A stretch of DNA of 64,000 bases. Origin: Opitutus sp. ER46 (lineage in GTDB: Bacteria > Verrucomicrobiota > Verrucomicrobiia > Opitutales > Opitutaceae). A program made the position numbers and the translations under genes. The stretch covers positions 248,001-312,000 of the forward strand of contig NZ_QAYX01000020.1 of assembly GCF_003054705.1 (NCBI RefSeq), written 5' to 3'. Under the pieces are notes generated by a model. That model was not told where the DNA came from, ran no database searches, and was given only the letters and a program-made list of their open reading frames with translations. Positions 32,310-49,146 of this stretch are shown here, one piece after another (the stretch's first letter is position 1; every line of letters starts with the position of its first letter).

Positions 32310-32707
32310 ATGAATACCACGAGCGCATCCGAACTTGAGTTTCGCACCATGAGCGCCGTTGGCGGCCAGCACCCGGAGACTCCGCCGCTGGCGACGCTGG
32401 TGGACGCGGCAAGCGCGGGTTCGGTTTGGCCGCGCGAGCCGCACCGCGACGGGACTCGTTCGCGAGCAAACACTGCACCGAAATCGAAGGCGTTGCGGAA
32501 CGTGGGCGATGCCGGCGCGGTCGAGACCTTGCTGAATTTTGCCGAAGCGGCTCGGGTGCTGGGGATTTCGTTGCGGCAGTTCCGGCGGCTTGTGGATGGC
32601 GGCCGGGTTGCTTTCGTGAAGGTCAGCGAACGGGCGCCGCGGATTCGGCCGAGCGAGCTGCAACGGTTCCTCGAAGCATCGGCGGTCAAATACTCGGAGG
32701 TGCAATC

Positions 32708-32711
<4 letters not shown>
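32310..32711 (+). CDS. Excisionase/AlpA-like helix-turn-helix protein of element 1
   Basis: The product has 133 residues. The first 70 are low-complexity and may be partly non-coding. The last 60 form a MerR/excisionase-type winged helix: LLNFAEAARVLGISLRQFRRL, then VDGGRVAFVKVSERAPRIRPSEL. Such proteins bend DNA at attachment sites or regulate the integrase. The stop codon overlaps the integrase start by four bases (ATGA at 32708), so the two are translationally coupled. A later internal start is possible. Confidence 0.65.
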
Positions 32712-34070
<1,359 letters not shown>

Positions 34071-34153
34071 TATTGAGTGGACACTTCTCATCACTTCGCT
34101 TCTATCGCGTAAAGGCCGGTACTCGTGCCGAGTTACCAGCGATTTACGGGACA

Positions 34154-35539
34154 ATGAATGCGAAGTTGAGCGAAGCAAAAAGCGGGAGTGAGAAGCGAAA
34201 AAGTGGCGGAGAAGTGGCGGAGCAACATCAGGTGCGCCGCTCCAAGCTCCACGCCGACTATTGGAAAAAGCGGCTATTCCACGAGGGGTTCACTCGTGGT
34301 GGCCGGCGGCTACTCTCCGGGAATTGGTCGGTTCGAATTAAGCACCAGGGCAGGCGCGGGGCGTTCGGACTCAACACACCAAACGCGGCGGCGGCGGCGG
34401 CAAAGGCCCAACAGATTTACGCCTCACTCGTCTCCGCCGGTTGGGATGCGACGCTTGCGAAATTCAAACCGGATGCCGTCAAGAAACCTGCGGCCGGAAC
34501 GGTTGGCCAGGCGATTGGCGCCGCTGCCCAACTCGTGACGACGCGAAAGCAGTCGTTTGCCCAGGCCGCGTTGCGGCTCCGCCAAATCGCGGGCGAACTC
34601 GCCGGCATTAAGCGCCCCGAGAACCCGACCGCATACAGGTCCGCCGAGTTTCTTGCCTGGCGTGCGAAAGTTGACGGGGTTCCACTCTCCATAATCACGG
34701 CAGCCGCGGTCCGCGAGTGGCGCGACAAGCGCATTGCCGCACGCGCAACAAATCCGGTGGAGAAGCGCGCGGCAACTATCTCCGCCGACTCGACCATCAG
34801 GATGGCGCGCGCGGTATTCTCGAGGCGAATCATGGAGAGCGGGCTTGCGTCTCATGTCACGCTGCCGAGCCCCCCACCCTTTGCTGGCGTCACTGTTGGC
34901 GGAAGCACCAAGCGCTTCGCCGGACGGATCAACGCAGGACAGTTGTTTGCCAAGGCACGCCAAGTGTTGGAAAAGGAAGAGCCGGAGGCATTTCGCGCCT
35001 TCTGTCTCTGTGTGCTCGCTGGACTGCGGAGAAGTGAGGCTGACCGGCTGGCGTGGTCGCAGGTGGATCTTGCTGGGCGAGTCATCACGATCGAGCGCAC
35101 CGAGTGGTTCGAGCCGAAGTCGGAAGAAAGCGCCCGGACAATCGACTTGGATGAAGTCGCCGTCGATATCCTTCGGCGCGCGAAATCAGACAACCCGGAC
35201 CCCGTGTTTGTGCTCAAGGGCGGCGCACCGAAGCTGCAAACCAAAGCCGCGCCCGCGTACCGCTGTGATGCTTCGCCATGGCGCACGTGGGAAAAGTTAA
35301 CAGAATGGCTGAGGGCCAACGGTGTTCACGACGCAAAGCCCATTCATGTTTTGCGGAAGCTCGCGGGATCGCTCGTTTTCCAGGCTCACGGGCTTGAACA
35401 GGCACGTGGATTTCTGGGGCACGCATCTATCACGACGACGAGCGACAGTTATCTTGTGAGACAGCGCCGAGTCACTGTTTCAATTCCAACTCCAAGCGAC
35501 GAGGTTTCGCGCGAGGCCGGAAAGGCAGGTGGCATGTGA
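34154..35539 (+). CDS. int: Tyrosine recombinase integrase of element 2
   Basis: The protein has 461 residues from ATG 34154; a GTG at 34214 is an alternative start. It has a basic arm-binding region, a core-binding domain (about 135-240) and a catalytic domain. The catalytic set is visible: Arg292 in AGLRRSEADRL, His398 and Arg401 in IHVLRKLAG, His423 in LGHAS and the nucleophile Tyr433 in TTSDSYL. It would recombine the 47-bp tRNA-Asn site with the element circle. It begins 84 bp from the att repeat. A 20-bp sequence repeated at the other end of the element overlaps its 5' part and may be an arm-type binding site. All catalytic residues are intact. Confidence 0.9.
   Translation: MNAKLSEAKSGSEKRKSGGEVAEQHQVRRSKLHADYWKKRLFHEGFTRGGRRLLSGNWSVRIKHQGRRGAFGLNTPNAAAAAAKAQQIYASLVSAGWDATLAKFKPDAVKKPAAGTVGQAIGAAAQLVTTRKQSFAQAALRLRQIAGELAGIKRPENPTAYRSAEFLAWRAKVDGVPLSIITAAAVREWRDKRIAARATNPVEKRAATISADSTIRMARAVFSRRIMESGLASHVTLPSPPPFAGVTVGGSTKRFAGRINAGQLFAKARQVLEKEEPEAFRAFCLCVLAGLRRSEADRLAWSQVDLAGRVITIERTEWFEPKSEESARTIDLDEVAVDILRRAKSDNPDPVFVLKGGAPKLQTKAAPAYRCDASPWRTWEKLTEWLRANGVHDAKPIHVLRKLAGSLVFQAHGLEQARGFLGHASITTTSDSYLVRQRRVTVSIPTPSDEVSREAGKAGGM
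34204..34223 (+). repeat. Putative arm-type integrase site, left copy
   Basis: Twenty bases built from two TGGCGGAG words recur exactly at 49007-49026, near the opposite end of element 2. Both copies lie inside the element, 134 and 45 bp from the respective 47-bp att repeats. This resembles arm sites of lambda-type integrases. Confidence 0.45.
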
Positions 35540-36117
35540 ACGCGCGCCGCAAAACCAAGGCAAAAAAGCCAAGCTCCCGAAGGCCAGGGCGCCCCGAGAA
35601 TAGCCGCAGGATTCTGACGAAAAAGGGTGCCGACTACTTCGATAACGAGATGCGGGCTCGTCTCGGTGATCTTCACGACGCCCCGCCTGGTTCCTTCTGG
35701 GCTGAGCGAGTATGGATAGATCGTCACCCCCGGGGCACGACTCTGCAGAAACGCGCGGAGGCACAGCATACGACCCCAGAGGCTTTGATCGTGGAGGCGA
35801 AAGCGCGCCCGCTGGCAGATTGGGCCTTGGCTCAGTTGATCGACGCCATCGACCGCCGAGACACGCAATTCTTTGAAGACGCTGCGCGCTACCTGCGGCG
35901 GCTCGGGTCCGACGGTTCACTTAACCTGCACGACCCGTGGCGATCTGCGATTCTTGATAGCATCGATTGGAGCGGCCGAACCAAGTACACAGTGACCGGC
36001 CTAATGGATTCCGTTCCGTGGAGGCGCTTTGGCTCCGGGTGCCCTGACTGGGGCTACCTGAAGAAGATGTGTGCTGAATTGGGAGTACCGATGCGGCGCG
36101 GCCGACCGCGGAAATAA
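35536..36117 (+). CDS. Hypothetical protein downstream of the integrase
   Basis: The GTG start overlaps the integrase stop by four bases, so the two are probably translated together. The 193-residue product has a very basic N-terminus (RRKTKAKKPSSRRPGRP), a helical middle (about 75-140) and ends with MRRGRPRK, an AT-hook-like tail. Nucleic-acid binding is plausible. I recognise no family, and it is too short to be a terminase or portal. Confidence 0.6.
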   Translation: MNARRKTKAKKPSSRRPGRPENSRRILTKKGADYFDNEMRARLGDLHDAPPGSFWAERVWIDRHPRGTTLQKRAEAQHTTPEALIVEAKARPLADWALAQLIDAIDRRDTQFFEDAARYLRRLGSDGSLNLHDPWRSAILDSIDWSGRTKYTVTGLMDSVPWRRFGSGCPDWGYLKKMCAELGVPMRRGRPRK

Positions 36118-36182
36118 AGGTTCCATTTCCGGCAATTCTTGTCCGATTGTCGGGCGAGGTGTTGCGCGGTCTTGTCCGCGGC

Positions 36183-36407
36183 ATGGAAGACATACCGCGC
36201 AGTAGTAACACCAGTGACAGGTTGGTTGATTTCCGGTATTTCAACGAAATCACCGGGTCGCGCTGCAAGACCTCACACACCGCGCGACAGTACGCCAAGC
36301 GGGGGCTAATCAGGGCTGTTCGGCTCAACGCCCGGGTGCTCCGCTATTCCGAAGCGAGCATTCGACAGTTCATCGCCAATGCCACGGATGGCGGAAGGGC
36401 GGCATGA
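36183..36407 (+). CDS. Small helix-turn-helix protein
   Basis: The protein has 74 residues from the ATG at 36183. The segment CKTSHTARQYAKRGLIRAVRLN followed by VLRYSEASIRQFIAN has the layout of a MerR/excisionase-type DNA-binding domain. It could be the excisionase or an early regulator of element 2. The stop overlaps the next start by four bases. Confidence 0.55.
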   Translation: MEDIPRSSNTSDRLVDFRYFNEITGSRCKTSHTARQYAKRGLIRAVRLNARVLRYSEASIRQFIANATDGGRAA

Positions 36408-36586
36408 ACCGCCGCGAGAACCGCGCGAGCGGCAGCACACACACCAAGGTCGATCGCATTGTCACCTGGGCGCGATCTCAGCGACTGCCGCACGAGTTGA
36501 CACCCAACGCGCTGTTGAGTGCATACCGTGAAGCCACAAGAACGGCCAGGGAACGGCGAGGGGGGCCGCGCCATGAAGGCCGATGA
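36404..36586 (+). CDS. Small basic protein
   Basis: This 60-residue ORF starts in an ATGA overlap with the preceding gene. It is Arg-rich with one probable helix (TKVDRIVTWARSQRLPHEL). Function is unknown. It is kept because of the tight gene packing; its C-terminal codons overlap the next start. Confidence 0.45.
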   Translation: MNRRENRASGSTHTKVDRIVTWARSQRLPHELTPNALLSAYREATRTARERRGGPRHEGR

Positions 36587-36764
36587 CCTCCCCCACCAAT
36601 ACCCCCTTTGCCTGCCGCCGATGCCAATGGAGCCGGCCGGCACGCGCTCCGAAGCCCTGGCAGACTTCTACGAAGCCGACGAGGTAGACCGGCCGCCGCA
36701 ACGCGAGGTGTTGCGAAGGATCGAGCGCATTCGCCGCGAAGCCGGCGAGAAGGGGGCCCAGTGA
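36573..36764 (+). CDS. Small acidic protein
   Basis: This 63-residue ORF overlaps genes on both sides. The product is Pro/Glu-rich (LADFYEADEVDRPPQREVL) with a C-terminal helix. No family is recognised. Coupling to the following initiator-like gene (GTGA overlap at 36761) suggests a role in the same early operon. Confidence 0.45.
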   Translation: MKADDLPHQYPLCLPPMPMEPAGTRSEALADFYEADEVDRPPQREVLRRIERIRREAGEKGAQ

Positions 36765-37669
36765 ATGCGCGGGACATCCATGACGGCCCGTGGTGCTGGC
36801 AGAGCAAAGGCGCGCGCCGCATCATCCGAGACGCCTTCGACGCGACGAACAACGTCGCTACTGCGCTGGCCGTGTATGACGCGTTGACGGAGATCGCGAG
36901 CGACAAACAGGCAGAGTCTTTCGAGACAACGCACGCATGGATTCAGCGGCTGAGCGGCGTTGGCGTTAGCACCATTAAAAGGCACCTCCGCGTCATGGCC
37001 GATCTCGGGCTCGTCGAGATCAACACGCCGGCCCTTCGCGCACCGTCCACCTACCGACTCCTTTCGATAGCCAACCATGGGCCAACGATAGCCAGCAGTG
37101 GGCTAGCGTTAGCCAACGGAACCCAAATCGCTCCGTTGGCTACATCAGAAGAATCAGAGAAGAATCACATGAAGAACGGGGGGAAAGAAGGCGCTGCGCG
37201 CCCCGCCCCCGCCTCTGTGCCCTTTCCTTGGTCTTCCCGATTTGATCTACCGCCCGAGTTGGCTGAGAAGCTGGCGACCGCCTTCCCGAACACCAACGCC
37301 GCCGAGGCCACCTTCTGCGAGATCCGCGGCCGAAAGCTCATGCATCGGGACTCATACCCCGCTGCCGATTGGCCGTCTGTGTTTCATGCCGAGGTCGATC
37401 GCGCTCGCGAGAAGGGTAATCCCGGACGATCCGGCCGCCACTTCGACAATGCTGAACCACACCCCGGTGTAACCGAGAGGACGGCGGCGGCTATGCAGTC
37501 GCGCGAGGGCGCCGCGATTCCCGAGCCTGCCAATTGGAGGCCGTGGGTGCGGGAGAATGCGGTCAACCCAGACCTGGCAGACCAACGGTGGGAGCAGTTG
37601 GACCGCGTGCAGCAGCGGTACCTGGCTGACAATGTGCCGGCTTCGTATGCGCCAAAGGAGGCCGCATGA
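36761..37669 (+). CDS. Replication-initiator-like protein with winged helix
   Basis: The protein has 302 residues from a GTG that overlaps the previous stop. The N-terminal 110 residues form a winged helix-turn-helix (ALAVYDALTEIASDKQAESF, then THAWIQRLSGVGVSTIKRHLRVMADLGLVEI as the recognition region), as in HTH_36-type phage replication proteins. The coding sequence right after this domain (37065-37142) consists of 21-bp direct repeats and a perfect inverted repeat, an arrangement like the origin inside lambda gene O. The C-terminal half is helical and may recruit a helicase. Replication is therefore the likely role, by context and architecture. Confidence 0.6.
   Translation: MNARDIHDGPWCWQSKGARRIIRDAFDATNNVATALAVYDALTEIASDKQAESFETTHAWIQRLSGVGVSTIKRHLRVMADLGLVEINTPALRAPSTYRLLSIANHGPTIASSGLALANGTQIAPLATSEESEKNHMKNGGKEGAARPAPASVPFPWSSRFDLPPELAEKLATAFPNTNAAEATFCEIRGRKLMHRDSYPAADWPSVFHAEVDRAREKGNPGRSGRHFDNAEPHPGVTERTAAAMQSREGAAIPEPANWRPWVRENAVNPDLADQRWEQLDRVQQRYLADNVPASYAPKEAA
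37065..37142. repeat. Candidate origin: 21-bp iterons and inverted repeat
   Basis: Two adjacent 21-bp units (37065-37085 and 37086-37106) share CGATAGCCA and TGGGC at the same spacing. A third partial unit begins at 37107. An 11-base perfect inverted repeat follows, with arms TAGCCAACGGA (37110-37120) and TCCGTTGGCTA (37132-37142). The whole lies inside the initiator-like gene. Confidence 0.5.
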
Positions 37670-37794
37670 AGCGCCCCCGTCGATTCCTTCGCGTTTACGG
37701 CATTGGGTCCGCGGGCAAGCCCTCGGCGTCGGTCTGGCCATTCTCGCCACGCCACGGCCACGGGGCGGCGTGCGGCGGGCCTCGGGCGCGAGTC

Positions 37795-37850
37795 GGTCAC
37801 CCCCGGGGGCGGGTCAAAAGTCTTCAGGCCACGGCGCAACACCGAGTGGC
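37795..37850. other. Packaging-site-like (cos-like) GC-rich sequence
   Basis: A CCCCCGGGGG palindrome (37800-37809) is followed by a GGGCGGGTCAAAAGTC-type stretch. From memory, similar stretches often precede terminase genes in tailed phages; this was not checked. An ATGA-overlapping frame from 37666 to 37956 crosses it but has the composition of non-coding DNA. No terminase gene follows. Confidence 0.3.
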
Positions 37851-37964
37851 TACAGTCACTCAAAACTCGCAAGGTTTCTGCAACAGCCCCCTTTTTGATG
37901 CGTCCGGGTGGTCCGCACAACTCGGTTTTACCCTGGGCGGCTTCGGCTGGGCGTGACTCACGAC

Positions 37965-38276
37965 ATGCGCCCACGTGATTCCAGTTCACTGCCAGCGGCC
38001 GTCCGATGGGTTACAGAATCCAAGGCGCAGAAGTGGAGGCATGATCGTGCCATGGCGTTCTTCTTCGCCACGTGCGGCGCCAACGCGTTCCCGGGGTGCG
38101 AAACGATGGCCGACGTGTGCGCGCGGCTCGGCGTATCAGAGCGGACGATGCAGGCGCACCTAGAGGCCCTTCGCATTGGATTCAGGCTTTATGCCCCCCG
38201 TCACGTGGCGACCGACCTACCGGTGCAAACGGAACACGAGTTTGCGGGGCAAAAGAAGACAGAAGAATCGGAATAG
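37965..38276 (+). CDS. Helix-turn-helix protein of element 2
   Basis: The protein has 103 residues. The segment ETMADVCARLGVSERTMQAHLEALRI is a typical HTH recognition region, preceded by a helical WVTESKAQKWRHDRAMAFFF stretch. It may regulate the late genes that start about 100 bp downstream. No effector domain is present. An alternative is a small terminase-like DNA-binding protein, given its position just after the cos-like sequence. Confidence 0.6.
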   Translation: MRPRDSSSLPAAVRWVTESKAQKWRHDRAMAFFFATCGANAFPGCETMADVCARLGVSERTMQAHLEALRIGFRLYAPRHVATDLPVQTEHEFAGQKKTEESE

Positions 38277-38368
38277 CCGATGCCTACACATTTTCAATCC
38301 AGTCAGTTTGCGCATCCATACATTTAGCGGAGGGGCCTCACGCCGGCCCAATGTAACCAACAACCAAC

Positions 38369-38968
38369 ATGTTTAAAACTAAAACCCAGACCGAGAAGGC
38401 CGTCGAGATCCTGCGCGAAATTGCGAAGTCCAGCGCACCACACCTCGCGATCATCAACGCGGCGCGCGCGGAAGTTGAGGCCGAGTGCGGGAAGAATCGC
38501 GCAATGAACGAAGCTGAACTCGAGTTCCAGTGCCGCGAATCCGGCGAACTCAACAACGCGCGCCAACAGTTGATCCGACTGCGACTCGAAGCGGAACGGG
38601 TCGCGCAGCCAATCATCTCCGAAGTCGCCGCGCTCGAAGCCGAGGTTCGCGCGACGCACGCCGAGAATATCGAGACGCTCAGACGCAGCGTGGTTGATGG
38701 CACGATCGCGACCCTTGGCGAGGCGCTTGCGAGAAAGTGCAGCTACATCGCCCCGCAGGTGATCGCTGAGCAGGAGTTCCAGGCCGCAAATCACGCGTCG
38801 ACCTGGGCCGAGTCGATGCGGCGGCTGTTCGCCGACGCGAGCGATTTCGACGGCCGCAATATTGCAGAACAGATCGCACTACAGGTGCCCCGGATTCAGG
38901 CAAGCGTGCTGGTGGTGCGGCAGCATAGCGAGGAGTTGCGGGCCGCGCATGGGCGTCCCGCGGCGTGA
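38369..38968 (+). CDS. Coiled-coil protein before the capsid gene, possible scaffold
   Basis: This 199-residue protein is almost entirely alpha-helical and charged, with heptad-like stretches from about residue 45 to 110 (RQQLIRLRLEAERVAQPI, EVAALEAEVRATHAEN). Its size, coiled-coil character and position directly upstream of the major capsid gene suggest a scaffolding protein, which would be needed here because no capsid protease or delta domain is visible. This is inference. The start follows an A/C-rich leader with CAA repeats instead of a Shine-Dalgarno sequence. Confidence 0.5.
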   Translation: MFKTKTQTEKAVEILREIAKSSAPHLAIINAARAEVEAECGKNRAMNEAELEFQCRESGELNNARQQLIRLRLEAERVAQPIISEVAALEAEVRATHAENIETLRRSVVDGTIATLGEALARKCSYIAPQVIAEQEFQAANHASTWAESMRRLFADASDFDGRNIAEQIALQVPRIQASVLVVRQHSEELRAAHGRPAA

Positions 38969-39007
38969 TCATCTTCAGGCAACCAAACCAACAAACCGAC
39001 CAATATT

Positions 39008-40066
39008 ATGTCACGATTTCCAAGTATCTATCAAATCGCCGTCGAGTCCCGCTCTGCGGTCGGCGCGAAATATCTCACCAGGGAGCAGGCCGAGGCGCAG
39101 GAGGAGCTGCGGACTCGCGTTCCGTTCGGGAAAACGTCCGGGATCATCCTGCCGTGGTACGAGCACCGCGACCTTTCGGCGACCGGGACCACTGCCATCG
39201 CAGGCGACCAGGGCGGCATGACCATCTCCACCGAAGTGCCCGAAATCGGCGCCGCGTTTCGCGATAAATTGGTGCTCGAGAAAATGGGCGCGCGCGTGTT
39301 CGGGGGCCTGCAGTCAGAGCTGCACTTCCCCCGGGCGCTCGCTGCAATATCTGCGGATTGGATGAGCGAGAACGCCTCGGGCGACGGCAAGACGTTCAAC
39401 TTTGGGCGGCTCGCGCTCGTGCCGCACCGCATCACGGCCTGGATTGATGTCTCCACCCAGCTTCTCCTGCAGGGGTCGCTCGTCGAGCCATTCCTTCGAA
39501 GCGAGCTTATGGCGGCACTCGCCACGGAGATTCAGCGCGTTGTTATCTCGGGGACCGGCAGCAGCAGTCAGCCCATGGGCATCCTAAACACGCCGGGCGT
39601 CCAGACCCTAGTGGGTGGTGTTAATGGTGCCGCCCCGACGTACGACAATCTGTGTGATTTCGAGTACGCCGTTGCGAACGGGAAGGCCGACCGCGGCAAT
39701 CTCGGGTGGCTCGTCTCTCCATTGACGCGAAAGAAGCTCCGGAAGACCGAGGGGTTCGCCGGCAGCGGGAAGCCGATCTGGGAGCCTACCGCCGCAGACT
39801 CGCTCCTCGGGTATTCGGCCGGTGTTACGACGGCGGTGCCCGACAACCTATCGAAGGGTTCCGCGTCCGGCGTATGCAGCGCGATCGCCTTCCTGGAAAT
39901 GAGCGAGGTGATTATCTGCCTATGGGGCGCCGGCGTCGAAATTAGCGCAACTCGCGCTGGTCTGCACAATACTGGGCAGACCCGGGTTTACGCATCAGCG
40001 TATGCTGACGGTGGTCTCCGGATTCCGGGGGCGGCTGCCGTCATGGTTGACGCGCTTTGCGCCTGA
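39008..40066 (+). CDS. HK97-fold major capsid protein
   Basis: This 352-residue virion protein has the family hallmarks: the N-arm/E-loop region with TTAIAGDQGGMTISTEV, a P-domain with LHFPRALAAISADWMSEN, and the A-domain signature VVISGTGSSSQPMGILNTPGV followed by NLGWLVSPLTRKKLRK. It should assemble the icosahedral shell. It lacks the long N-terminal delta domain of HK97 itself, and no protease gene precedes it, so the upstream coiled-coil protein may scaffold it. The leader is A/C-rich without a Shine-Dalgarno sequence. The neighbours on both sides are co-directional. Confidence 0.9.
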   Translation: MSRFPSIYQIAVESRSAVGAKYLTREQAEAQEELRTRVPFGKTSGIILPWYEHRDLSATGTTAIAGDQGGMTISTEVPEIGAAFRDKLVLEKMGARVFGGLQSELHFPRALAAISADWMSENASGDGKTFNFGRLALVPHRITAWIDVSTQLLLQGSLVEPFLRSELMAALATEIQRVVISGTGSSSQPMGILNTPGVQTLVGGVNGAAPTYDNLCDFEYAVANGKADRGNLGWLVSPLTRKKLRKTEGFAGSGKPIWEPTAADSLLGYSAGVTTAVPDNLSKGSASGVCSAIAFLEMSEVIICLWGAGVEISATRAGLHNTGQTRVYASAYADGGLRIPGAAAVMVDALCA

Positions 40067-40071
40067 TCGCC

Positions 40072-40443
40072 ATGTGGGTCACACTTGACGAGTTTCGCGA
40101 GATCCATCCGGCGTTCGCCGACGAGGCGCGCGCGGTGTTTGGGACCATTCAGACCCGCAAAGTCGCTGCCGACGGTCGCGCCGCCGTGCCGCTGGACCTT
40201 TTGGCCCGTGCGTGTGTGGTCTGGCGCGCCGATCAAACGATGATGCGGCGAGACGGCTCAATGAAGTCGGCCCCGCAGTTCAGGCATGCCGATTACCAGG
40301 GCGGTCTCGCCGATCTCCACGCCGAAGACGTCGCGACGGATACGGCCGCACGCCGGCAGGCCATACTTGAGCGACGCGGGGTCCCGTCACCACAACCGAC
40401 TCCCAGATTCCCGGCGATGCGAAGCGCCGTGCCATTGATATGA
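40072..40443 (+). CDS. Small structural or connector-like protein
   Basis: This 123-residue protein starts six bases after the capsid stop. The sequence is helical with aromatic and acidic residues (WVTLDEFREIHPAF, RACVVWRADQTMMRRDG). Position and size suit a head-completion or tail-assembly protein, but I recognise no family. Its stop overlaps the next start by four bases. Confidence 0.5.
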   Translation: MWVTLDEFREIHPAFADEARAVFGTIQTRKVAADGRAAVPLDLLARACVVWRADQTMMRRDGSMKSAPQFRHADYQGGLADLHAEDVATDTAARRQAILERRGVPSPQPTPRFPAMRSAVPLI

Positions 40444-40892
40444 CTAGTTGCGGGTGCGCCCCCGGGAGCAGAACTCCCGGGGGCCAAACCGCCAAATCGC
40501 CACCGATCAATCCAATGAACGTTCCCGTTTTGCCAAAGAATCCCGACGAGTGGGAGGGAGTGACCTTTACGGTACATCTCGACCGGCCCCGGACGCTTCG
40601 AATCACGCTCCCTGCACTCAGAACCTTCGAACAGAAGATTGGCCGGGCGATCGTCGACGGCGGCCTAAGTTCGCCGGAGCAGCTGGCCGTGTTGATCGAG
40701 GTGCTTTCGCGCGCGGCCGGTGACCCGATTGACGCGCGAGAAGCCGTGGCGCTTCTGGATTCCCGCAGCGTGCTCGAAATCCACGGTGGGTTTCGCCTCT
40801 TCACGAGCGAGGTGTCTCGGATGCGCGATCTCGCGCAGGCGTGGGGCCCGGCAATGCGGCTGATCGACGCACCCGCCTCAACCGACAACTGA
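40440..40892 (+). CDS. Putative tail assembly chaperone
   Basis: The product has 150 residues from an ATGA overlap; an internal ATG (MNVPVLPKN, codon 26) is an alternative start. It has a beta-rich start (GVTFTVHLDRPRTLRITL) and a helical body (LRTFEQKIGRAIVDGGL, EQLAVLIEVLSRAAG). This matches the layout of tail assembly chaperones, which sit directly before the tape measure gene in siphophages and keep the tape measure soluble. No slippery sequence for a gpG/gpGT-type frameshift was seen. Confidence 0.5.
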   Translation: MTSCGCAPGSRTPGGQTAKSPPINPMNVPVLPKNPDEWEGVTFTVHLDRPRTLRITLPALRTFEQKIGRAIVDGGLSSPEQLAVLIEVLSRAAGDPIDAREAVALLDSRSVLEIHGGFRLFTSEVSRMRDLAQAWGPAMRLIDAPASTDN

Positions 40893-40905
40893 CAAACAAA
40901 CCGTC

Positions 40906-42483
40906 ATGGCAAAATCACTACCGCCAATTTCCGCCAAGGTCATCGCCGACGCCGAACAATATGTCGCTGAGCTGAAGCGTGCCGATCGCGCCACCAAGAC
41001 GTTCGGGTCGCAGGTTGACAAAGAGCTCGATGCGCTCGGCAGGAAGGTTAAGCGCAAGTTCTCGCTAGCCGACATCGGGACAAGCGTCCTGTCCGGCCTC
41101 GGCCTCGGGTCCGGCTTTGCGATTGCCGAGAAGGCGATCGACCTAATTGCGAGCCGCTACGCCGACGCCGCAAAGGCGCAGCTTATCATGGAAGAGAGCG
41201 CGGCGCGGCAGCTGGCGATCACGAAGGAAATTCTGGCCGTCGGGCAGACCGATGAACAGCGGCTCGACTCGATGATTGCCGAGGCCACTGAGCTTTACAA
41301 GAAGCGCCAGGCACTGCTCGAGCAACAGTACGACACGATCACGAAGACGGACCGCGAGGGCAACGAGTTCACAGTCAGCACGCCGAGGGCACGCAGTTCC
41401 GAGGATGAGAAGAAGCTGGCCGACCTCACCGCCGCCTACGACAAACTGCGCGTGTCCGTGGCAAAGCTGCGGAAGGAACTCCAGGACAAGGCCGTCACCG
41501 AGCGGGCGACGGAGGCGGAGCGGGATCAGGAAGCACGCATTCGCAACGGTACCGCGTATCTCCGGGAGCGTGAAGCTGCCTTTGATGCACTACTCAAGAA
41601 GCAGGATGAGCACGCGGATGCGACCGCCCGCGCAAACAAAGAGGAAGAAGTGCTTGCCGATCGGATTCGCGCGATGAGCGATCCGCTCTTCGAGTACAAG
41701 AAGAACCTGGAGGATCTTGAGAAGGCGCGGGCGAAACTGACGGCCGCAGAGTATGCGGCAGCGAAAGTTGCGATCGAGAACAAGGAAAAGGCGCGGCAGG
41801 TGTCAGACGTTTCCAGCGAGCTCGACGACTTTTTCGGAAACATCGATCAGGCATCGCGCAAGTTTAAGGACGTGACCAATGGCGCGCGCGCGTTCGAGAC
41901 CGAAATGAACCAGCTGTGGAACAGCATCTCCGACCGCGCCGGGCAGACGTTTGCTGATATGCTGCTAGAGGGTGAGATGACGTTTGGGAATCTTGCGAAC
42001 ATGGTCTCGCGTGCGGTCATCGAAATGGTGAGTCGCTTGGCGATCATCAACCCAATCCTCAACGCGCTATTTGGTGGTGCGACCGGCGTGTTGCCGGCGC
42101 TGTTTAGCATTGGCGGTGCGGTTGCTGGTGGTGCTGCCGGAGCTGCTGGCGCAGCAAGCTCTGGCGGTGCTGGCATCATAGATGCGGGCGCATTTTCGAC
42201 GACGATGGCACCCGTTATGGCATCGGGCGGTAGCGCAGAGGCCGGCATAACGTATCGGGTAAACGAGGACGGTCAGGAGTTTTTCCGGGCGTCCGTCGGA
42301 GGAACAATAATCCCAGTCGGCGCGAGTGGGCATCTTCGAGGCGAGTCGCAGCCGACCAAGGTCTTCAATTTTACGTACCATATTCCGGCCGGCGTGACGC
42401 ATGCCGAGTTGTTGCCGATTCTTAAGGCGCAGGAGCGGCGGACTATTGCAGCACTGCGCGACGCGGACCGGAGGGGCATCTAA
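40906..42483 (+). CDS. Tail tape measure protein
   Basis: The protein has 525 residues. It begins with ISAKVIADAEQYVAELKRAD, typical of tape measure proteins, and continues with a hydrophobic segment near residues 55-85 (VLSGLGLGSGFAIAEKAI). Long coiled coils follow (about 150-340), then a second hydrophobic region (about 375-420) with Gly/Ala-rich repeats. The C-terminal end YRVNEDGQEFFRASVGGTI resembles the conserved tape measure tail. By the usual 1.5-angstrom-per-residue rule it would set a tail of roughly 80 nm, short for a siphophage. The leader is A/C-rich without a Shine-Dalgarno sequence. Confidence 0.85.
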   Translation: MAKSLPPISAKVIADAEQYVAELKRADRATKTFGSQVDKELDALGRKVKRKFSLADIGTSVLSGLGLGSGFAIAEKAIDLIASRYADAAKAQLIMEESAARQLAITKEILAVGQTDEQRLDSMIAEATELYKKRQALLEQQYDTITKTDREGNEFTVSTPRARSSEDEKKLADLTAAYDKLRVSVAKLRKELQDKAVTERATEAERDQEARIRNGTAYLREREAAFDALLKKQDEHADATARANKEEEVLADRIRAMSDPLFEYKKNLEDLEKARAKLTAAEYAAAKVAIENKEKARQVSDVSSELDDFFGNIDQASRKFKDVTNGARAFETEMNQLWNSISDRAGQTFADMLLEGEMTFGNLANMVSRAVIEMVSRLAIINPILNALFGGATGVLPALFSIGGAVAGGAAGAAGAASSGGAGIIDAGAFSTTMAPVMASGGSAEAGITYRVNEDGQEFFRASVGGTIIPVGASGHLRGESQPTKVFNFTYHIPAGVTHAELLPILKAQERRTIAALRDADRRGI

Positions 42484-42487
42484 TATT

Positions 42488-42757
42488 ATGATCAAACCAT
42501 TCGACGGATTGCGACGGACGTTCAGAAAGATGGCGGCGCTTCTGCGCATCGCTTGCGCCCCGGGTGTCACGCGGATCTCGCGCGACGTGTACTCTGATAA
42601 GGCGGATATTGGGGGCCCTCGCGTACTGCGCTATAGCGACGAGGATCAGCAGCGTCTCTTCCCCGGCGATCGCGGGCTAGAGCACGCTGCAAACGCAAAT
42701 CGGCCGCTTCCCTGGGGGCATCTGCAGGAGAATGACGGTCATGGTTCTGAGGGCTAA
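42488..42757 (+). CDS. Small protein between tape measure and tail tip genes
   Basis: The protein has 89 residues from the ATG five bases after the tape measure stop. It has a basic N-terminal helix (FDGLRRTFRKMAALLRIA) and a charged, probably flexible C-terminal part (YSDEDQQRLFPGD). In siphophages this slot holds distal tail or hub proteins. It is too short for a complete one and no family is recognised. Confidence 0.45.
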   Translation: MIKPFDGLRRTFRKMAALLRIACAPGVTRISRDVYSDKADIGGPRVLRYSDEDQQRLFPGDRGLEHAANANRPLPWGHLQENDGHGSEG

Positions 42758-42760
42758 GCC

Positions 42761-45700
42761 ATGGCACCAGCAGTAGGATGGGTTGCGGCAAAAGTTGCGG
42801 CTTGGTGGGCAGCGGCATCGCTGGCGACAAAGGTATTTGTCGTGCTGTCGATCGCATCAACGGCGTACTCCATTACGTCGTCGGCGCGTGCGCGAAAAAA
42901 GATGCGCGCCATGTTGGACTCGCTCAAAAATAGCGGGCAGACAATCACAGTACAGGAGGCGGCAGGGTCGCGTCACATCGTTTACGGCACAGCGCGCAAG
43001 GGTGGTAACCGCGTGTTTGCACACCTCACGGGCACAAAGGGAGAATACCTGCACGTCATCATCGCGCTTGCGCTCGGAGAGTGTGAGTCTATCGGCGACA
43101 TCTATCTTGGTGACGACGTTGTGCCGCTCGACGCCAGCGGCAACGCCACCGGAACCTACTCCGGATTTGTCCGCTGCAAAAAGTACACCGGAACCACTAC
43201 GCAGGTTATCGGATCATCGACGCTCGCGGTTGAGGCTCCTGGCATCTGGGACGCGTCGCATAAGGGTTCGGGTATCGCGGCAATTGAGCTGCGGTTCAAA
43301 TACGATTCCGATAAGTATCCCAACGGCATTGAAAACATCAGCGCGATGGTCAGCGGTCGGAAGCTGTATGATCCGCGCACCGGCGCTACTGCATTTTCGA
43401 ACAACCCGGCCCTTGTCGTCCGCGACTATCTAACGAATCCACAATATGGATTCGGCGCGGCCGAGGACGAGATTGATGACGCGACAGTGATTGCTGCGGC
43501 CAACGTGTGCGACGAAGACGTTGGACTTGTCGGCGGCGGGACCGAAAAGCGCTATACCTGTAACGGAGTGGTTGATACGTCGAACATTAGGAGCGAAATC
43601 CTGCTGCAGCTAACGAACTCAATGGCTGGCTGGGTTGTGTACTCTGGCGGTCGCTGGCGTGTGTATGCCGGCGCCCACCGTGCGCCGTCAGCATCATTTA
43701 CGCTCGACGACCTACGCGGCCCGATCACGGTGCAGGCGTCGGCCAGCCGTCGCGACTCGTGCAACGGCGTCAAGGGCGTGTTTTTGTGCCAAGATAATCA
43801 ATGGCAGCCGGCGGACTATCCGCCGATCCGAAACGCCACCTACGAGGTGGAGGACGCGACCCAGGTGCGCAGCGTAACGGCCGACGCTACGACAGACGCG
43901 CTGACGCTCGACGCTCAGACAAACATCCTCGCCGGCACTGCGATCCGGCTATCGACTACAGGCACGGCGCCGGGAGGCATCACGGCTGGCACGGTCTATT
44001 ACGCAATCGTTGTAGACTCGACGCATATCAAGGTAGCCAGTACGCGCGCCAATGCTACGGCCGGCACATCGATTGACATCACGTCGGCGGGAACTGGCGC
44101 GCATAGCATCCTTGTCGGCGATACCGTGTGGCGCGAAATGGATCTGCCGTTTACGACGTCGGCCGCGACGGCGCAGCGACTCGCAAAGATCGAGCTCGAG
44201 CGTAGTCGGCAAGATATTGTTGTGAGTCTGCCGCTCAAGCTACATGGCATGCGCGTGCAGGCGGGCGACGTGTTTGCGCTGACGGTCGCGCGATACGGCT
44301 GGACCAACAAACTCTTCGAGGTCAGCGAGTGGAAATTTTCGCTCGACGACGGAGACAACCCGGCGCTTGGCGTAGATATTGTTGCGTGCGAGACAGCGGC
44401 CGGCGTGTGGGATTGGGCTGACGGCGAGGAGACTGCGATTGACCTGGCGCCAAACACCACGCTGCCGGACCCGCGCAACGTCGCAACTCCCGCGGGGCTC
44501 ACGGTCACGAGTGGCGCGACTACGGTGCAGATGCAGCCAGACGGCACGGTGCTACCGCGCATGCTCGTGGCGTGGACAGCGCCAAACGACATCCACATCG
44601 AGAGCGGCGGTCGTGTCATCATCGAGACGGCAATTAATGGCAGTGGGGCGTGGTTCCCAGCAAAGACGGTGCGTGGCGACGCGACGTCTGATTACCTTGT
44701 TGGGTACCGCGCTGGCGGCGTATTTGATATTCGCGTACGATTCCAAAATAACCGCGGCATTCGCGGCGAGTGGGCTACTGTAACCGGCCATACGCTTGTC
44801 GGCGACACGGCCAAGCCAAGCGCTCCAGGCACTCCGACGGCCGTCGCGTACCCAGGTTACAATCGCATCACATGGTCCAAGAGCAGCGCGGCTGACGTGT
44901 ACGAGTACGCGATCTACCGCAACACGAGTAACAGTTTCTCGGGTGCCACAAAGCTGGGCGAGACCGGCGGGCTTGCGTGGGACGATCCATCCGTCACTGC
45001 CGGCGTGACGTACTACTACTTTGTTACCGCGATCGACGGCTCGGAAAACGAGAGCGACCCGACGAGTAGCGGCGCGGCAACTACAGCCACAGCCCCCGTT
45101 GGCGCCGTCGTCCCGTCCGCCCCGTCCGCTGCCTCGCGCGTCACACCCGGCAGTAATGACACGTACATGGCCGGCGACGGCACGGTGTACGCGTTTATCA
45201 CTCTGAGCGTGCCGGCAATGCCGTCGGGCGCCGTATGGCAAAACGTGCTATACCGTCGCAATGGCGGCGGCGAGTGGATCGTTGCGGCCCAGCTAAAAAA
45301 TACGGGCAGCACGACGCTGCGTGTTGACGACCTATCGACTGGCGTAGCCTACGAGTTTGCGACACAGGCATGGTCGGGCGCCGGCGGGTCTGCGATCACG
45401 GCGGCGACGGGATCACCGTTCACGGCGCCAACAAAGACTGGCGCACCGCCAGTAATGAGCAGCACCTACGGCTTTGGTCTGCTCAACTACGGATTTAGCC
45501 CAACATTCACGTCATCTGGCGCGAGGCGATATGGGGTTGCTGCTAGGTGGGCCGACGGAATTGGATACACGAATTATCCATATCCGTCCGACTTTAGTCA
45601 CTGGGAGGTCAAGGCCACCGCAACCGACTCGGACGCGGCAGTCGACTATAATGCGGATAGCGGCAGCGGTGTTCCCGCGCTGATAAAGTCTTCATCACCT

Positions 45701-46291
45701 GTTGTCTTTTACTATGTAGATTCGCCGGTCAGATCATATCTCAGGATACGCGGGGTCAACAAGTCGGGCCAGGCCGCGGACTGGTTCAGGGCAACTACGA
45801 TTTGGGAGACACCCGGGTATTGGACGCTGACGGGCGGGGATGCGTCCGCCAAAAACGTCGGAACAACATCCGGGACGGTGGCGGCCGGTGACGACTCCCG
45901 CATAACCGGAGCCGCTCAGAAGGCCAGCAACCTATCGGACCTTACAAATACGTCTGCCGCTCGTAGCAACCTTGGGGTTGGAACCGCCGCGACGCTCAAC
46001 GCGGACAACATGGGCGCCGTTGGCCTGTCCAGCATCACCTCCACCAACGGCGATGGGTATGGTCCGGCGATGCGGTCCGCGGTCGGCAGCAACTACATGT
46101 CGTTTAAGTGGGGCTCGACACTCCTTATCAAGATTGACGTCAGTGAGTTCATCATCCCGCACCACGCGGGGAAGTCGTCTGCCGTGGGGTTTGTGTCGGG
46201 TGGCGGGGTGAGTGACGCGCAGGACGTCGAGGCCCGCGCCGCACTCGATTCGGTCATCCAGACGCTCAAAGATTGGAATATAATGGCGTAG
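42761..46291 (+). CDS. J-like tail tip / host-specificity protein
   Basis: This 1176-residue virion protein has a hydrophobic N-terminus (about 1-40) and a hub domain like lambda J/tip attachment proteins (about 60-370; GTKGEYLHVIIALALGECESI, NPALVVRDYLTNPQYGFG). A beta-rich module of about 70 residues is inserted near 380-455. The hub resumes at VWREMDLPFTTSAATAQRLAKI. Fibronectin III-like domains follow (about 685-860), and a C-terminal fibre-like part has the repeat SNLSDLTNTSAARSNLGVG. It would contact the host receptor and fix host range. Codon and base use look less GC-rich than in host genes. Confidence 0.85.
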   Translation: MAPAVGWVAAKVAAWWAAASLATKVFVVLSIASTAYSITSSARARKKMRAMLDSLKNSGQTITVQEAAGSRHIVYGTARKGGNRVFAHLTGTKGEYLHVIIALALGECESIGDIYLGDDVVPLDASGNATGTYSGFVRCKKYTGTTTQVIGSSTLAVEAPGIWDASHKGSGIAAIELRFKYDSDKYPNGIENISAMVSGRKLYDPRTGATAFSNNPALVVRDYLTNPQYGFGAAEDEIDDATVIAAANVCDEDVGLVGGGTEKRYTCNGVVDTSNIRSEILLQLTNSMAGWVVYSGGRWRVYAGAHRAPSASFTLDDLRGPITVQASASRRDSCNGVKGVFLCQDNQWQPADYPPIRNATYEVEDATQVRSVTADATTDALTLDAQTNILAGTAIRLSTTGTAPGGITAGTVYYAIVVDSTHIKVASTRANATAGTSIDITSAGTGAHSILVGDTVWREMDLPFTTSAATAQRLAKIELERSRQDIVVSLPLKLHGMRVQAGDVFALTVARYGWTNKLFEVSEWKFSLDDGDNPALGVDIVACETAAGVWDWADGEETAIDLAPNTTLPDPRNVATPAGLTVTSGATTVQMQPDGTVLPRMLVAWTAPNDIHIESGGRVIIETAINGSGAWFPAKTVRGDATSDYLVGYRAGGVFDIRVRFQNNRGIRGEWATVTGHTLVGDTAKPSAPGTPTAVAYPGYNRITWSKSSAADVYEYAIYRNTSNSFSGATKLGETGGLAWDDPSVTAGVTYYYFVTAIDGSENESDPTSSGAATTATAPVGAVVPSAPSAASRVTPGSNDTYMAGDGTVYAFITLSVPAMPSGAVWQNVLYRRNGGGEWIVAAQLKNTGSTTLRVDDLSTGVAYEFATQAWSGAGGSAITAATGSPFTAPTKTGAPPVMSSTYGFGLLNYGFSPTFTSSGARRYGVAARWADGIGYTNYPYPSDFSHWEVKATATDSDAAVDYNADSGSGVPALIKSSSPVVFYYVDSPVRSYLRIRGVNKSGQAADWFRATTIWETPGYWTLTGGDASAKNVGTTSGTVAAGDDSRITGAAQKASNLSDLTNTSAARSNLGVGTAATLNADNMGAVGLSSITSTNGDGYGPAMRSAVGSNYMSFKWGSTLLIKIDVSEFIIPHHAGKSSAVGFVSGGGVSDAQDVEARAALDSVIQTLKDWNIMA

Positions 46292-46308
46292 GGATTCGCG
46301 CTGGCGGG

Positions 46309-46653
46309 TCATGGATTTCGACCGCCGAGCTTGAGCAACTCGGAGCCGCGAATCATCCAGGGTGCGCGCGGTCCGCTGCGCTGTCCAATGATCCAGCGGC
46401 AACGCAGCCGCCTGCGGATGGTCTTGCCGCTCAGTCCTGGGATTAGCGCGGTAGCCTCGGCAATCGAGTACACCGCGTTAGGCTCAATGCGCTTAACCGC
46501 GGCTGTCCCGCGCAGCTCTTGACGCAGCTCGCGCACCTCCCGCATGAGGCTTGGAAGAAGGCATTCGGTGAGGTCGGCCTGGGGCATGAGCTCGACTAAC
46601 CGGCGGGCAATAGCCTCAACCGATTCTGGGGACAGGGTGCAGACGGGGTGCAT
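46309..46653 (-). CDS. HTH DNA-binding protein, copy A of an inverted pair
   Basis: The protein has 114 residues from ATG 46653; a TTG at 46671 is an alternative start. Residues 1-60 form a helical N-terminal part (VEAIARRLVELMPQADL, MREVRELRQELRG). The rest is an excisionase/MerR-like domain (VYSIAEATALIPGLSGKTIRRRL, then WMIRGSELLKLGG). The first 62 codons plus leader belong to a 226-bp inverted repeat shared with the gene at 47618-47965, while the DNA-binding tails differ at many silent and coding positions. It points left, convergent with the tail tip gene. It is a likely regulator or recombination directionality factor. Confidence 0.65.
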   Translation of the reverse strand: MHPVCTLSPESVEAIARRLVELMPQADLTECLLPSLMREVRELRQELRGTAAVKRIEPNAVYSIAEATALIPGLSGKTIRRRLRCRWIIGQRSGPRAPWMIRGSELLKLGGRNP

Positions 46654-46691
46654 GCCATTGCGATGGTACAAAAAGCCCGCCTTGGCGAACC
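46466..46691 (-). repeat. 226-bp inverted repeat, left arm
   Basis: It pairs with 47580-47805 at 225 of 226 positions in inverted orientation; the only mismatch is at 46682/47590-type position in the GTTCGCCAA(G/T) word. It covers a terminator arm, the leader and the N-terminal coding part of HTH copy A. Confidence 0.95.
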
Positions 46692-46706
46692 GCGTCCGAC
46701 GGCGGG
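46670..46706 (-). terminator. Rho-independent terminator of the zinc-ribbon gene
   Basis: On the minus strand, six-base arms CCCGCC and GGCGGG flank a 19-base loop and are followed by C and a run of five T. It starts 16 bases after the zinc-ribbon stop codon and precedes HTH copy A. One arm lies inside the inverted repeat and the other outside, yet pairing is kept. Confidence 0.55.
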
Positions 46707-46722
46707 TCGCCCGGCGCCCCCG

Positions 46723-46896
46723 TCACCAGATTCCCAGCAACTTCAGCAGCAGCGCACCGGCAACTAGCCCAATGATGATTGCCGCCACGATACCCGTGGC
46801 GGTCTGCCTTTCCTTAATTGGCCGTCCGCACTTCGGACACTTCTCTGCGGATTCGGATACTTCGGTTTTACAGTCGGGGCAGGTAATAAGGGGCAT
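46723..46896 (-). CDS. Zinc-ribbon membrane protein, 57 residues
   Basis: The ATG at 46896 opens a 57-codon frame. The N-terminus carries two CxxC knuckles (CPDC and CPKC, spaced for one zinc ribbon) and the C-terminal half is a single hydrophobic segment (GIVAAIIIGLVAGALLL). Zinc-ribbon plus one membrane helix is common in small bacterial and phage-borne membrane proteins; superinfection exclusion is one possibility, without direct evidence. It lies in the segment between the 226-bp inverted repeats and is followed by a terminator. Confidence 0.65.
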   Translation of the reverse strand: MPLITCPDCKTEVSESAEKCPKCGRPIKERQTATGIVAAIIIGLVAGALLLKLLGIW

Positions 46897-47268
46897 AGCC
46901 GAATGGGGTTCAGTTCTTCTCTCAAATAGACACGCGCTTCACAAATCGAATCTCAATCTAGCATGGCGGGACCGGCGGCGGGGCAATATTCGTTGGCCGA
47001 TGTCCGCGACAACCGGCGGCCGTGGAAAACTGGTGAGCCGTTCCACCCAGAAGCGCTTTGACGTTCCGGCGCATGGCGGGCAGTGTCCGCCGCGAGGTTG
47101 GGTGCGCTGCCTTGAACAGTGACGCCCCGGCCGGAGTGGTTCGTAGAAGGATGAAAACCAGAAATACAACAGAATTGGGCCGGGTGTGTGCGGGCGGCGA
47201 AAGCCGGGGCGCCTTCATCCGCGTCTGTTCAATCCGGACGCATCCGGCCCTCCCTGTTGAAAGCTAAA
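46897..47268. other. Divergent intergenic region inside the inverted-repeat segment
   Basis: The 372 bp separate the minus-strand zinc-ribbon gene from the plus-strand 91-codon gene and must hold promoters for both. Overlapping frames on each strand (for example plus 47058-47267) have no family signal. Locally AT-richer DNA at 46910-46970 is the best promoter candidate for the zinc-ribbon gene. Confidence 0.5.
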
Positions 47269-47544
47269 ATGGAACTGAACAATGACCGCGGCTTCGCGTC
47301 GTCGAATGCTAGTCACCACTGCCCCGCCTGCGCCAAATGCATCGACCAGCGCGTGGAATACGTGCGGGAGGTGATAGAGGTGGTTCGGGGTATCGTCTCC
47401 CCGGTGCAACTTGCCGCGATCAGTGAGCGAGTGGAGTGCATCAAGCTCGAGGAGATCGCTGAGCGTGTCGCGCGGCGCCGCTTCCGCGAGGCGATCGCCG
47501 AGCGCGTGGCGCCACGTTTACCGCCCGATCTGCGCCGGCACTAA
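47269..47544 (+). CDS. Small protein with a CxxC knuckle and coiled coil
   Basis: The protein has 91 residues from ATG 47269. It has one HCPACAKC knuckle near residue 17, followed by a charged helix (DQRVEYVREVIEVVRGIV) and an Arg/Glu-rich tail (AERVARRRFREAIAERVA). Function is unknown. It lies between the inverted repeats, points right, and is followed by a strong terminator and HTH copy B. The frame extends 27 codons upstream but the extra part looks non-coding. Confidence 0.55.
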   Translation: MELNNDRGFASSNASHHCPACAKCIDQRVEYVREVIEVVRGIVSPVQLAAISERVECIKLEEIAERVARRRFREAIAERVAPRLPPDLRRH

Positions 47545-47569
47545 GCTCTGGCCGCACCTGGCCCCATAC

Positions 47570-47601
47570 AGCCCGCCCTGGTTCGCCAATGCGGGCTTTT
47601 T
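47570..47601 (+). terminator. Rho-independent terminator
   Basis: Seven-base arms AGCCCGC (47570-47576) and GCGGGCT (47591-47597) enclose an inner TGG-TTCG-CCA stem-loop and are followed by five T. It ends the small gene at 47269-47544 and lies immediately before HTH copy B. Confidence 0.75.
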
Positions 47602-47805
47602 GTACCATCGCAATGGCATGCACCCCGTCTGCACCCTGTCCCCAGAATCGGTTGAGGCTATTGCCCGCCGGTTAGTCGAGCTCATGCCCCAGGCCGACCT
47701 CACCGAATGCCTTCTTCCAAGCCTCATGCGGGAGGTGCGCGAGCTGCGTCAAGAGCTGCGCGGGACAGCCGCGGTTAAGCGCATTGAGCCTAACGCGGTG
47801 TACTC
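47580..47805 (+). repeat. 226-bp inverted repeat, right arm
   Basis: It is the inverted partner of 46466-46691, identical except for one base. The match begins at GGTTCGCC and stops abruptly at the codon for the first residues of the DNA-binding tail (TACTC), after which the two genes differ substantially. Confidence 0.95.
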
Positions 47806-47965
47806 CATCGATGAGGCTGCGGCGCTGATCCCGGGACTGAGCGCAAAGACAATCTGCAAGCGGCTGCGTTGCCGCTCGATAATCGGGCAAAAGGGCGGAC
47901 TGCGGTCGCCCTGGATGATCCGCGGCTCCGAGCTGCTTAAGTTGGGCGGCAAGGTCGTTGGCTAG
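47618..47965 (+). CDS. HTH DNA-binding protein, copy B of an inverted pair
   Basis: The protein has 115 residues from ATG 47618. The N-terminal 62 residues equal those of copy A (46309-46653). The tail (VYSIDEAAALIPGLSAKTICKRL, then SPWMIRGSELLKLGGK) is an excisionase/MerR-like DNA-binding domain that differs from copy A in the recognition part. It points right and starts just behind a terminator, so it needs its own promoter or antitermination. A CCAT-CGCA-ATGG palindrome (47605-47616) directly before the start is a possible operator present in both copies. Confidence 0.65.
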   Translation: MHPVCTLSPESVEAIARRLVELMPQADLTECLLPSLMREVRELRQELRGTAAVKRIEPNAVYSIDEAAALIPGLSAKTICKRLRCRSIIGQKGGLRSPWMIRGSELLKLGGKVVG

Positions 47966-47968
47966 GCA

Positions 47969-48346
47969 TCAGACGATTCGCCGCCCGTTCCGGTCCCATG
48001 CGGGGAACTTCGGTGATCCGAGCGCCGGTGAGGGCGCTGCGCACAACCAGTCGGGGTGGTAGCCGTATGAGAACGCCCCGACCATCACGCGGTAGCTCTG
48101 CCAGATGTCGAAGCAGAGACAGTGAGGGTCGTCGGTGCAGTCCTCGCCGCGCCGGAACGCCCAGGCCATGAGATCGGCCGGCGTCGTTGCGCAACCGTCG
48201 TGGCGCACGCTGATGTCATCCAGGATCTCGCGCAGCAGTGCTTCGGCGCAGACGACGGGCGCGCCGGTCTCGGTCTGGGCCGTCAGCATGTAACGGAGTA
48301 GGTCGCGCTCATACACCCAGGGATCGCCATCTGTGTTCCTCGACAT
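47969..48346 (-). CDS. Hypothetical protein of element 2
   Basis: The protein has 125 residues from ATG 48346; a longer frame to 48388 adds residues of non-coding type. It is rich in Trp, Tyr, Cys and Asp (PWVYERDLLRYMLTAQTETG, DDPHCLCFDIWQSYRVMV) and looks like a compact globular protein. No family is recognised. It is convergent with HTH copy B and divergent from the next gene. Confidence 0.55.
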   Translation of the reverse strand: MSRNTDGDPWVYERDLLRYMLTAQTETGAPVVCAEALLREILDDISVRHDGCATTPADLMAWAFRRGEDCTDDPHCLCFDIWQSYRVMVGAFSYGYHPDWLCAAPSPALGSPKFPAWDRNGRRIV

Positions 48347-48420
48347 GTAACGAGCCAACGACGGCCGAAGGCGTGTGCAAACGTACACTATTCACAAGTT
48401 GCCGACAGAAATCCAATCAG

Positions 48421-48996
48421 ATGCAGGCGTTTGACACGCGCCGCGGATTCGCCCAGACTTGGGCGTTGATGCCCCAGAAGACGAGCACCAGCGGCAAAAC
48501 GGTGGTGGACTACGCCAAGCGCGAGATCGGCGGAATCTTGGTTCGCCCCGATTCTCGCGACGTGATGCGCAAGGCTGTTGAGGGCCACCCGATCCGCGTC
48601 CATTCCGCAAGCGACTACGTGAACCTCTACCACGTGTTCAAGCGGATGCGCGAGGCAGGCCGCGCCGGTGCGAACCTCGAACTGGTTCGGCGGCAGGTCG
48701 CACAGTCGGAGTGGCTGCTTTTTGTGCTCCCGGCCGACGTCAACGCCCCCAAGGTTGAGATCCGCGCGGGCTACGACCCGAAGCGCGGCCGGTACAGGCG
48801 CTACGCTGAACGCCTCGCGGCGGGCGAGGTGCTCCACCTGGACAGCCGGGAAGAGGCGGTGAAGGCGCGCAAGGCGTGGCGGCTGTATGTGCCGCTGGCG
48901 CAACGCCAGGGTTTGAGATCCACGACGAAGAAGCGCCCGGGAGGAGGGGTTACTGTCGCCATCTCGAAACGGCACGCCCACCTCGGGGAAGCGTGA
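48421..48996 (+). CDS. Hypothetical protein at the right end of element 2
   Basis: The protein has 191 residues from ATG 48421. It is Arg/Lys-rich and mixed alpha/beta (SASDYVNLYHVFKRMREAGR, EWLLFVLPADVNAPKVEIRAG, KARKAWRLYVPLAQRQGL). No domain is recognised. It is the last gene before the right arm-site repeat and the tRNA, where satellites and prophages often carry accessory (for example anti-phage) cargo. Confidence 0.55.
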   Translation: MQAFDTRRGFAQTWALMPQKTSTSGKTVVDYAKREIGGILVRPDSRDVMRKAVEGHPIRVHSASDYVNLYHVFKRMREAGRAGANLELVRRQVAQSEWLLFVLPADVNAPKVEIRAGYDPKRGRYRRYAERLAAGEVLHLDSREEAVKARKAWRLYVPLAQRQGLRSTTKKRPGGGVTVAISKRHAHLGEA

Positions 48997-49006
48997 ATCG
49001 CGGGAA

Positions 49007-49026
49007 TGGCGGAGAAGTGGCGGAGC
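49007..49026 (+). repeat. Putative arm-type integrase site, right copy
   Basis: It is an exact copy of the 20 bases at 34204-34223, in direct orientation, made of two TGGCGGAG words. It lies 45 bases from the right att repeat and inside element 2. Confidence 0.45.
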
Positions 49027-49042
49027 TGAAAAAATGGAAAAA

Positions 49043-49066
49043 CCCAAGAACGCGTAAGTTCTTGGG
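49043..49066 (-). terminator. Terminator of tRNA-Asn, supplied by element 2
   Basis: Perfect nine-base arms CCCAAGAAC and GTTCTTGGG flank a six-base loop, and on the minus strand the stem is followed by TTTTT. It lies five bases beyond the tRNA CCA end, on the element side of the att repeat, so integration replaced the host terminator with this one. Confidence 0.8.
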
Positions 49067-49070
49067 CTTC

Positions 49071-49146
<76 letters not shown>

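Follow-up and report, generated by a model that had tools for sequence, protein, structure and literature searches.

Near-identical heads and diverged tails in an inverted gene pair of a prophage-like element of Opitutus sp. ER46

A prophage-like element at a tRNA-Asn gene

The analysed window comprises 64,000 nucleotides of the Opitutus sp. ER46 genome (contig NZ_QAYX01000020.1, positions 248,001 to 312,000) and harbours a 15-kb element bounded by a perfect 47-bp direct repeat on the plus strand. The left copy, attL (34024-34070), reproduces the 3' end of tRNA-Asn and is 100% identical to the right copy, attR (49071-49117), which is located at the 3' end of the tRNA-Asn gene (49072-49146, minus strand). 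A tyrosine integrase gene lies beside attL (34073-35539, plus strand; Pfam Phage_integrase, 38.6 bits; phrog_1), and the element further encodes a major head protein, a tape-measure protein and a gpJ-like central tail fibre or host-specificity protein (42761-46291, plus strand; phrog_5616, E 3e-80; phrog_31, E 1e-70). No terminase, portal or lysis genes were recognised in the scanned open reading frames (ORFs) of 34024-49117, and the occurrence of head and tail genes without them points to a degraded prophage or a satellite-like element. Relatives of the gpJ-like protein, approximately 44% identical, are present in viral contigs L009-L011, in which neither a long inverted repeat nor a relative of the gene pair described below was detected.

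Several further features accompany the element borders. A second direct repeat (78%; 34184-34223 and 48987-49026, with TGGCGGAGAAGTGGCGGAGC in common) is positioned just inside both att sites, and its copies are possibly integrase arm sites. The ORF beside attR (48421-48993) belongs to an unknown family, with a 58% identical relative in the same genome (contig C24; locus L026, 9628-10089) and 48-51% identical relatives in two same-family genomes (L027 and L028); the loci holding these relatives contain no counterpart of the gene pair and no inverted repeat. A third, partial copy of the tRNA-Asn att core, with 2 mismatches in 21 positions, occurs at 24894-24914. The interval from there to 34062 includes a frame-split integrase (32426-33724 / 33094-34062), with ParD-like, zeta-toxin-like, HNH, HTH_3 and HipA genes between, and is probably an older island inserted in tandem at the same tRNA-Asn.

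The inverted gene pair and its interior

The right end of the element, between the tail-fibre gene and attR, is occupied by a divergent block of four genes: gene A (46309-46653, minus strand, 114 aa), gene B (47618-47965, plus strand, 115 aa) and two small genes between them. The A and B proteins are 89% identical. The block is flanked by convergent genes, the tail-fibre gene on one side and an ORF on the minus strand (47969-48346) on the other, and lies about 1 kb inside attR. Of the interior genes, the one next to A encodes a zinc-ribbon protein of 57 aa that has a hydrophobic stretch at its C-terminus (46723-46896, minus strand; Pfam Zn_ribbon_3, 26.5 bits, just under the cut-off of 27), and the one next to B encodes a 91-aa ORFan (47269-47544, plus strand) with no family assignment and no relative in 250 genomes of the family. 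The two are unrelated by eye.

Genes A and B reside in the arms of an inverted repeat (46322-46691 and 47580-47949), each 370 nt long, 91% complementary and separated by 888 nt. It is the sole pair of inverted repeats of at least 26 nt in 20000-52500, and the genome holds these two copies and no third. Differences between the arms total 32 and are distributed very unevenly: 31 fall in the outer 144 nt, which carry the diverged tails of A (46322-46465, minus strand) and B (47806-47949, plus strand), and a single one falls in the inner 226 nt, which carry the head of each gene together with its leader (46466-46691, minus strand; 47580-47805, plus strand). The first-pass annotation had described heads identical at 225 of 226 bases in inverted orientation, an abrupt boundary to tails with many silent differences, and an 888-bp interior with two small genes between A on the minus and B on the plus strand. 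Each of these points is borne out, and the count of 225 is exact for a draft assembly of 25 contigs, in which a repeat of 226 bp may prove difficult to resolve, a circumstance that bears on both the orientation and the identity of the arms. The longest identical run between the arms is 215 nt, a length that permuting the 32 differences 200,000 times never produced (maximum 148); the pattern is real, and chance is ruled out as its source. The sole inner difference, at position 46681, is situated in the leader, inside the hairpin found ahead of each gene and at a distance of 11 bases from where the repeat ends on its interior side. The ten bases interior to this difference match between the arms, so the older repeat extends at least that far.

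The hairpins resemble terminators. On the A side, the structure precedes a U run immediately upstream of the gene (46674-46691, minus strand) and is part of the inner arm; on the B side (47570-47600, plus strand), it has a 7-bp stem, U5 and a predicted energy of -17 kcal/mol, with its right half in the inner arm. The U run ends roughly 20 bases before the ATG of both A and B. With seven pairs and U5, the B-side hairpin is shaped as intrinsic terminators usually are. Both hairpins are best regarded as putative and unproven: a simple terminator scan returned as many such matches from shuffled sequence, and the 71 nt around the hairpins showed no folding advantage over shuffled versions (z = -0.27 and -1.45). 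If they are real, expression of A and B would depend on transcription reading through from the gene upstream or on a promoter that overlaps the hairpin. A scan of the region for sigma-70-like promoters, a weak test in this phylum, found none.

Neither A nor B matches any Pfam, PHROG or NCBIfam family above the cut-off, the Pfam HTH_17 (PF12728) threshold included. The first-pass annotation had called both helix-turn-helix (HTH) genes; this label finds no backing in family matches of the proteins themselves and is upheld for the tails through kinship with an HTH_17 protein. A profile search built from A and B retrieved a 75-aa protein of a same-family genome (G362) that is 43% identical to the B tail over 60 aa and passes Pfam HTH_17 at 32.7 bits against a cut-off of 27. 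By sequence comparison, it is this relative only that connects the tails with HTH_17. Its gene, about 0.6 kb away from an integrase-like ORF, forms an overlapping tandem with a second HTH_17 gene (locus L031, 8480-8880). An AlphaFold model of low confidence (mean pLDDT 69) places two helices in the head and a strand, two helices, a strand and a helix in the tail, and this predicted tail order is that of winged HTH proteins. Foldseek searches with the model returned nothing significant, only the MerR-type CarH and BldC at E of about 4, and a sequence search of the PDB yielded just ribosomal protein L1 with a non-significant E-value. Relatives of A and B were sought among phages and plasmids (tblastn), viral contigs, genome contigs, 95 relatives and 373 genomes of the order, and the weak HTH_17 tail relative was all that emerged. 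For the head, the phages, plasmids, viral contigs and genomes of the order yielded no relative, and the DNA pattern of the leader was absent from the viral contigs.

Divergence of heads and tails and its possible causes

The coding sequences separate into two parts with different histories. Across the tails (codons 63-111), 19.5 synonymous differences were counted at 39.5 sites (approximately 49%), giving a dS of 0.81 that has only these 39.5 sites behind it; non-synonymous differences numbered 12.5 at 107.5 sites (dN 0.126), and dN/dS is about 0.16. Across the heads (codons 1-62), which were compared between A and B alone and for which the searches gave no outgroup, there were neither synonymous nor non-synonymous differences, with 47.7 synonymous sites. 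Had the heads diverged synonymously as fast as the tails, 47.7 sites would be left without synonymous change with a probability of approximately 1e-14. Unequal constraint on the protein as the cause of head identity is ruled out by these silent sites (0 in 47.7 against 49% in the tails). Heads free of synonymous change beside tails with dS 0.81 and dN 0.13 indicate an old gene pair, its tails apparently under purifying selection, whose heads, judged from this comparison, are recently homogenised.

The reading that we favour, and consider probable, is recent gene conversion between old inverted paralogues; it explains all that was seen. The first-pass annotation had named gene conversion of the heads as the alternative to an invertible switch, and this alternative accounts for all the data. 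A and B would each encode a small phage regulator composed of an N-terminal helical head and a C-terminal DNA-binding domain of HTH_17 type, and would be related as old, inverted paralogues or xenologues. Ordinary homologous recombination between the inverted copies may recently have copied a tract of about 215-226 bp, spanning the leader and 62 codons, from one copy into the other, ending at codons 62/63. An identical run far longer than expected, extending to synonymous sites and ending at a sharp edge, is the pattern that marks gene conversion. The difference at 46681, followed by ten matching bases, is the residue expected of a conversion tract lying inside an older repeat. The failure to recognise a dedicated invertase in the scanned ORFs and the presence of only two genomic copies were also counted in favour of gene conversion. 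The products would probably be phage regulators or recombination directionality factors sharing the same head and presenting slightly different DNA-binding faces. Inversion of the interior by this same recombination would also be possible, probably at a low rate.

A mosaic origin is unlikely. One gene with its adjoining small gene may have come, inverted, from a related phage, or one head may have been acquired from another phage. Mosaicism is usual in phages, the visible lack of relationship between the two upstream genes would fit such an origin, and the tail dS of 0.81 could reflect separate histories in different phages. However, a head identity of 225/226 within one genome is most simply read as mutual exchange, and no donor relative was found in the phages, plasmids, viral contigs and genomes searched.

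The invertible switch proposed in the first-pass annotation appears improbable, even if the anatomy permits it. Recombination between the 226-bp arms would flip the interior, swapping the upstream gene or promoter region of the A tail against that of the B tail, and repeated flipping would keep the heads identical. A simulated crossover in the identical block left both proteins and both hairpins intact, placing the zinc-ribbon gene before B and the gene at 47269 before A; with coding unchanged, only the upstream context of each tail can alter. As only about 20 bases separate the U run from the start codon of A or B, the promoters plausibly lie in the invertible interior, and the convergent genes bounding the block mean that a flip would leave the neighbours undisturbed. 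The pneumococcal hsdS loci undergo inversion at inverted repeats of 85-333 bp (PMC4948785, PMC6620402). Against this stand the genome and viral collections searched, which revealed neither a second orientation nor a related locus arranged either way. The scanned ORFs yielded no recognisable dedicated invertase, only the tyrosine integrase of the element and the second, frame-split integrase; the former matched a tyrosine-type invertase model weakly (15.8 bits, far under the cut-off of 221). The promoter scan described above, weak as it is in this phylum, also lends the switch no support, and with identical heads inversion gives rise to no new protein. Should flipping of the interior take place, the locus would constitute a promoter-swapping switch with the protein sequence untouched. 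The specific form in which such a switch of the prophage is driven by homology, with flips between the identical heads exchanging the promoters of two paralogous regulators whose DNA-binding faces differ, leaving their proteins unchanged and preserving head identity, is very improbable.

An assembly artefact, in which the assembler placed the same consensus in both arms, is least credible of all, for although the genome is a draft of 25 contigs and the repeat exceeds common short-read length, the contig spans the repeat, the tails were kept distinct, and so was position 46681, which is no more than 11 bases away from the interior edge.

Comparison with known systems

Returning to gene conversion as the preferred reading, the proteins may be compared with winged-HTH recombination directionality factors such as RdfS (PMC11963761) and with HTH_17 phage regulators. 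Shared features are the small size of a DNA-binding protein, its location in an integrase-bearing element and an extra N-terminal helix before the HTH, and by this analogy it is reasonable to suppose that A and B may act as regulators or, as for RdfS, recombination directionality factors. Unlike those proteins, A and B have a head without known relative, and their genes, in the integrated state, are about 11 kb away from that of the integrase, yet close to attR.

The pneumococcal hsdS loci (spnIII / Spn556II; PMC4948785, PMC6620402) likewise combine inverted homologous segments, the longest of about 300 bp, with diverged segments that determine specificity, and inverted repeats of this size can invert there independently of RecA. 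Inversion at hsdS yields new chimeric specificity proteins, whereas inversion between A and B would leave both proteins unchanged; moreover, the hsdS locus encodes a tyrosine recombinase (PsrA/CreX), in contrast to the A/B block, for which no dedicated invertase was recognised.

A further likeness in sequence pattern is with gene conversion and concerted evolution of bacterial or phage paralogues, in which a sharp-edged identical tract, synonymous sites included, interrupts otherwise diverged repeated genes. A and B differ from such cases in being inverted, very close together (888 bp) and carried by a prophage. Read as gene conversion, the locus would document that inverted paralogues of a phage regulator, lying close to each other, have recently exchanged sequence.
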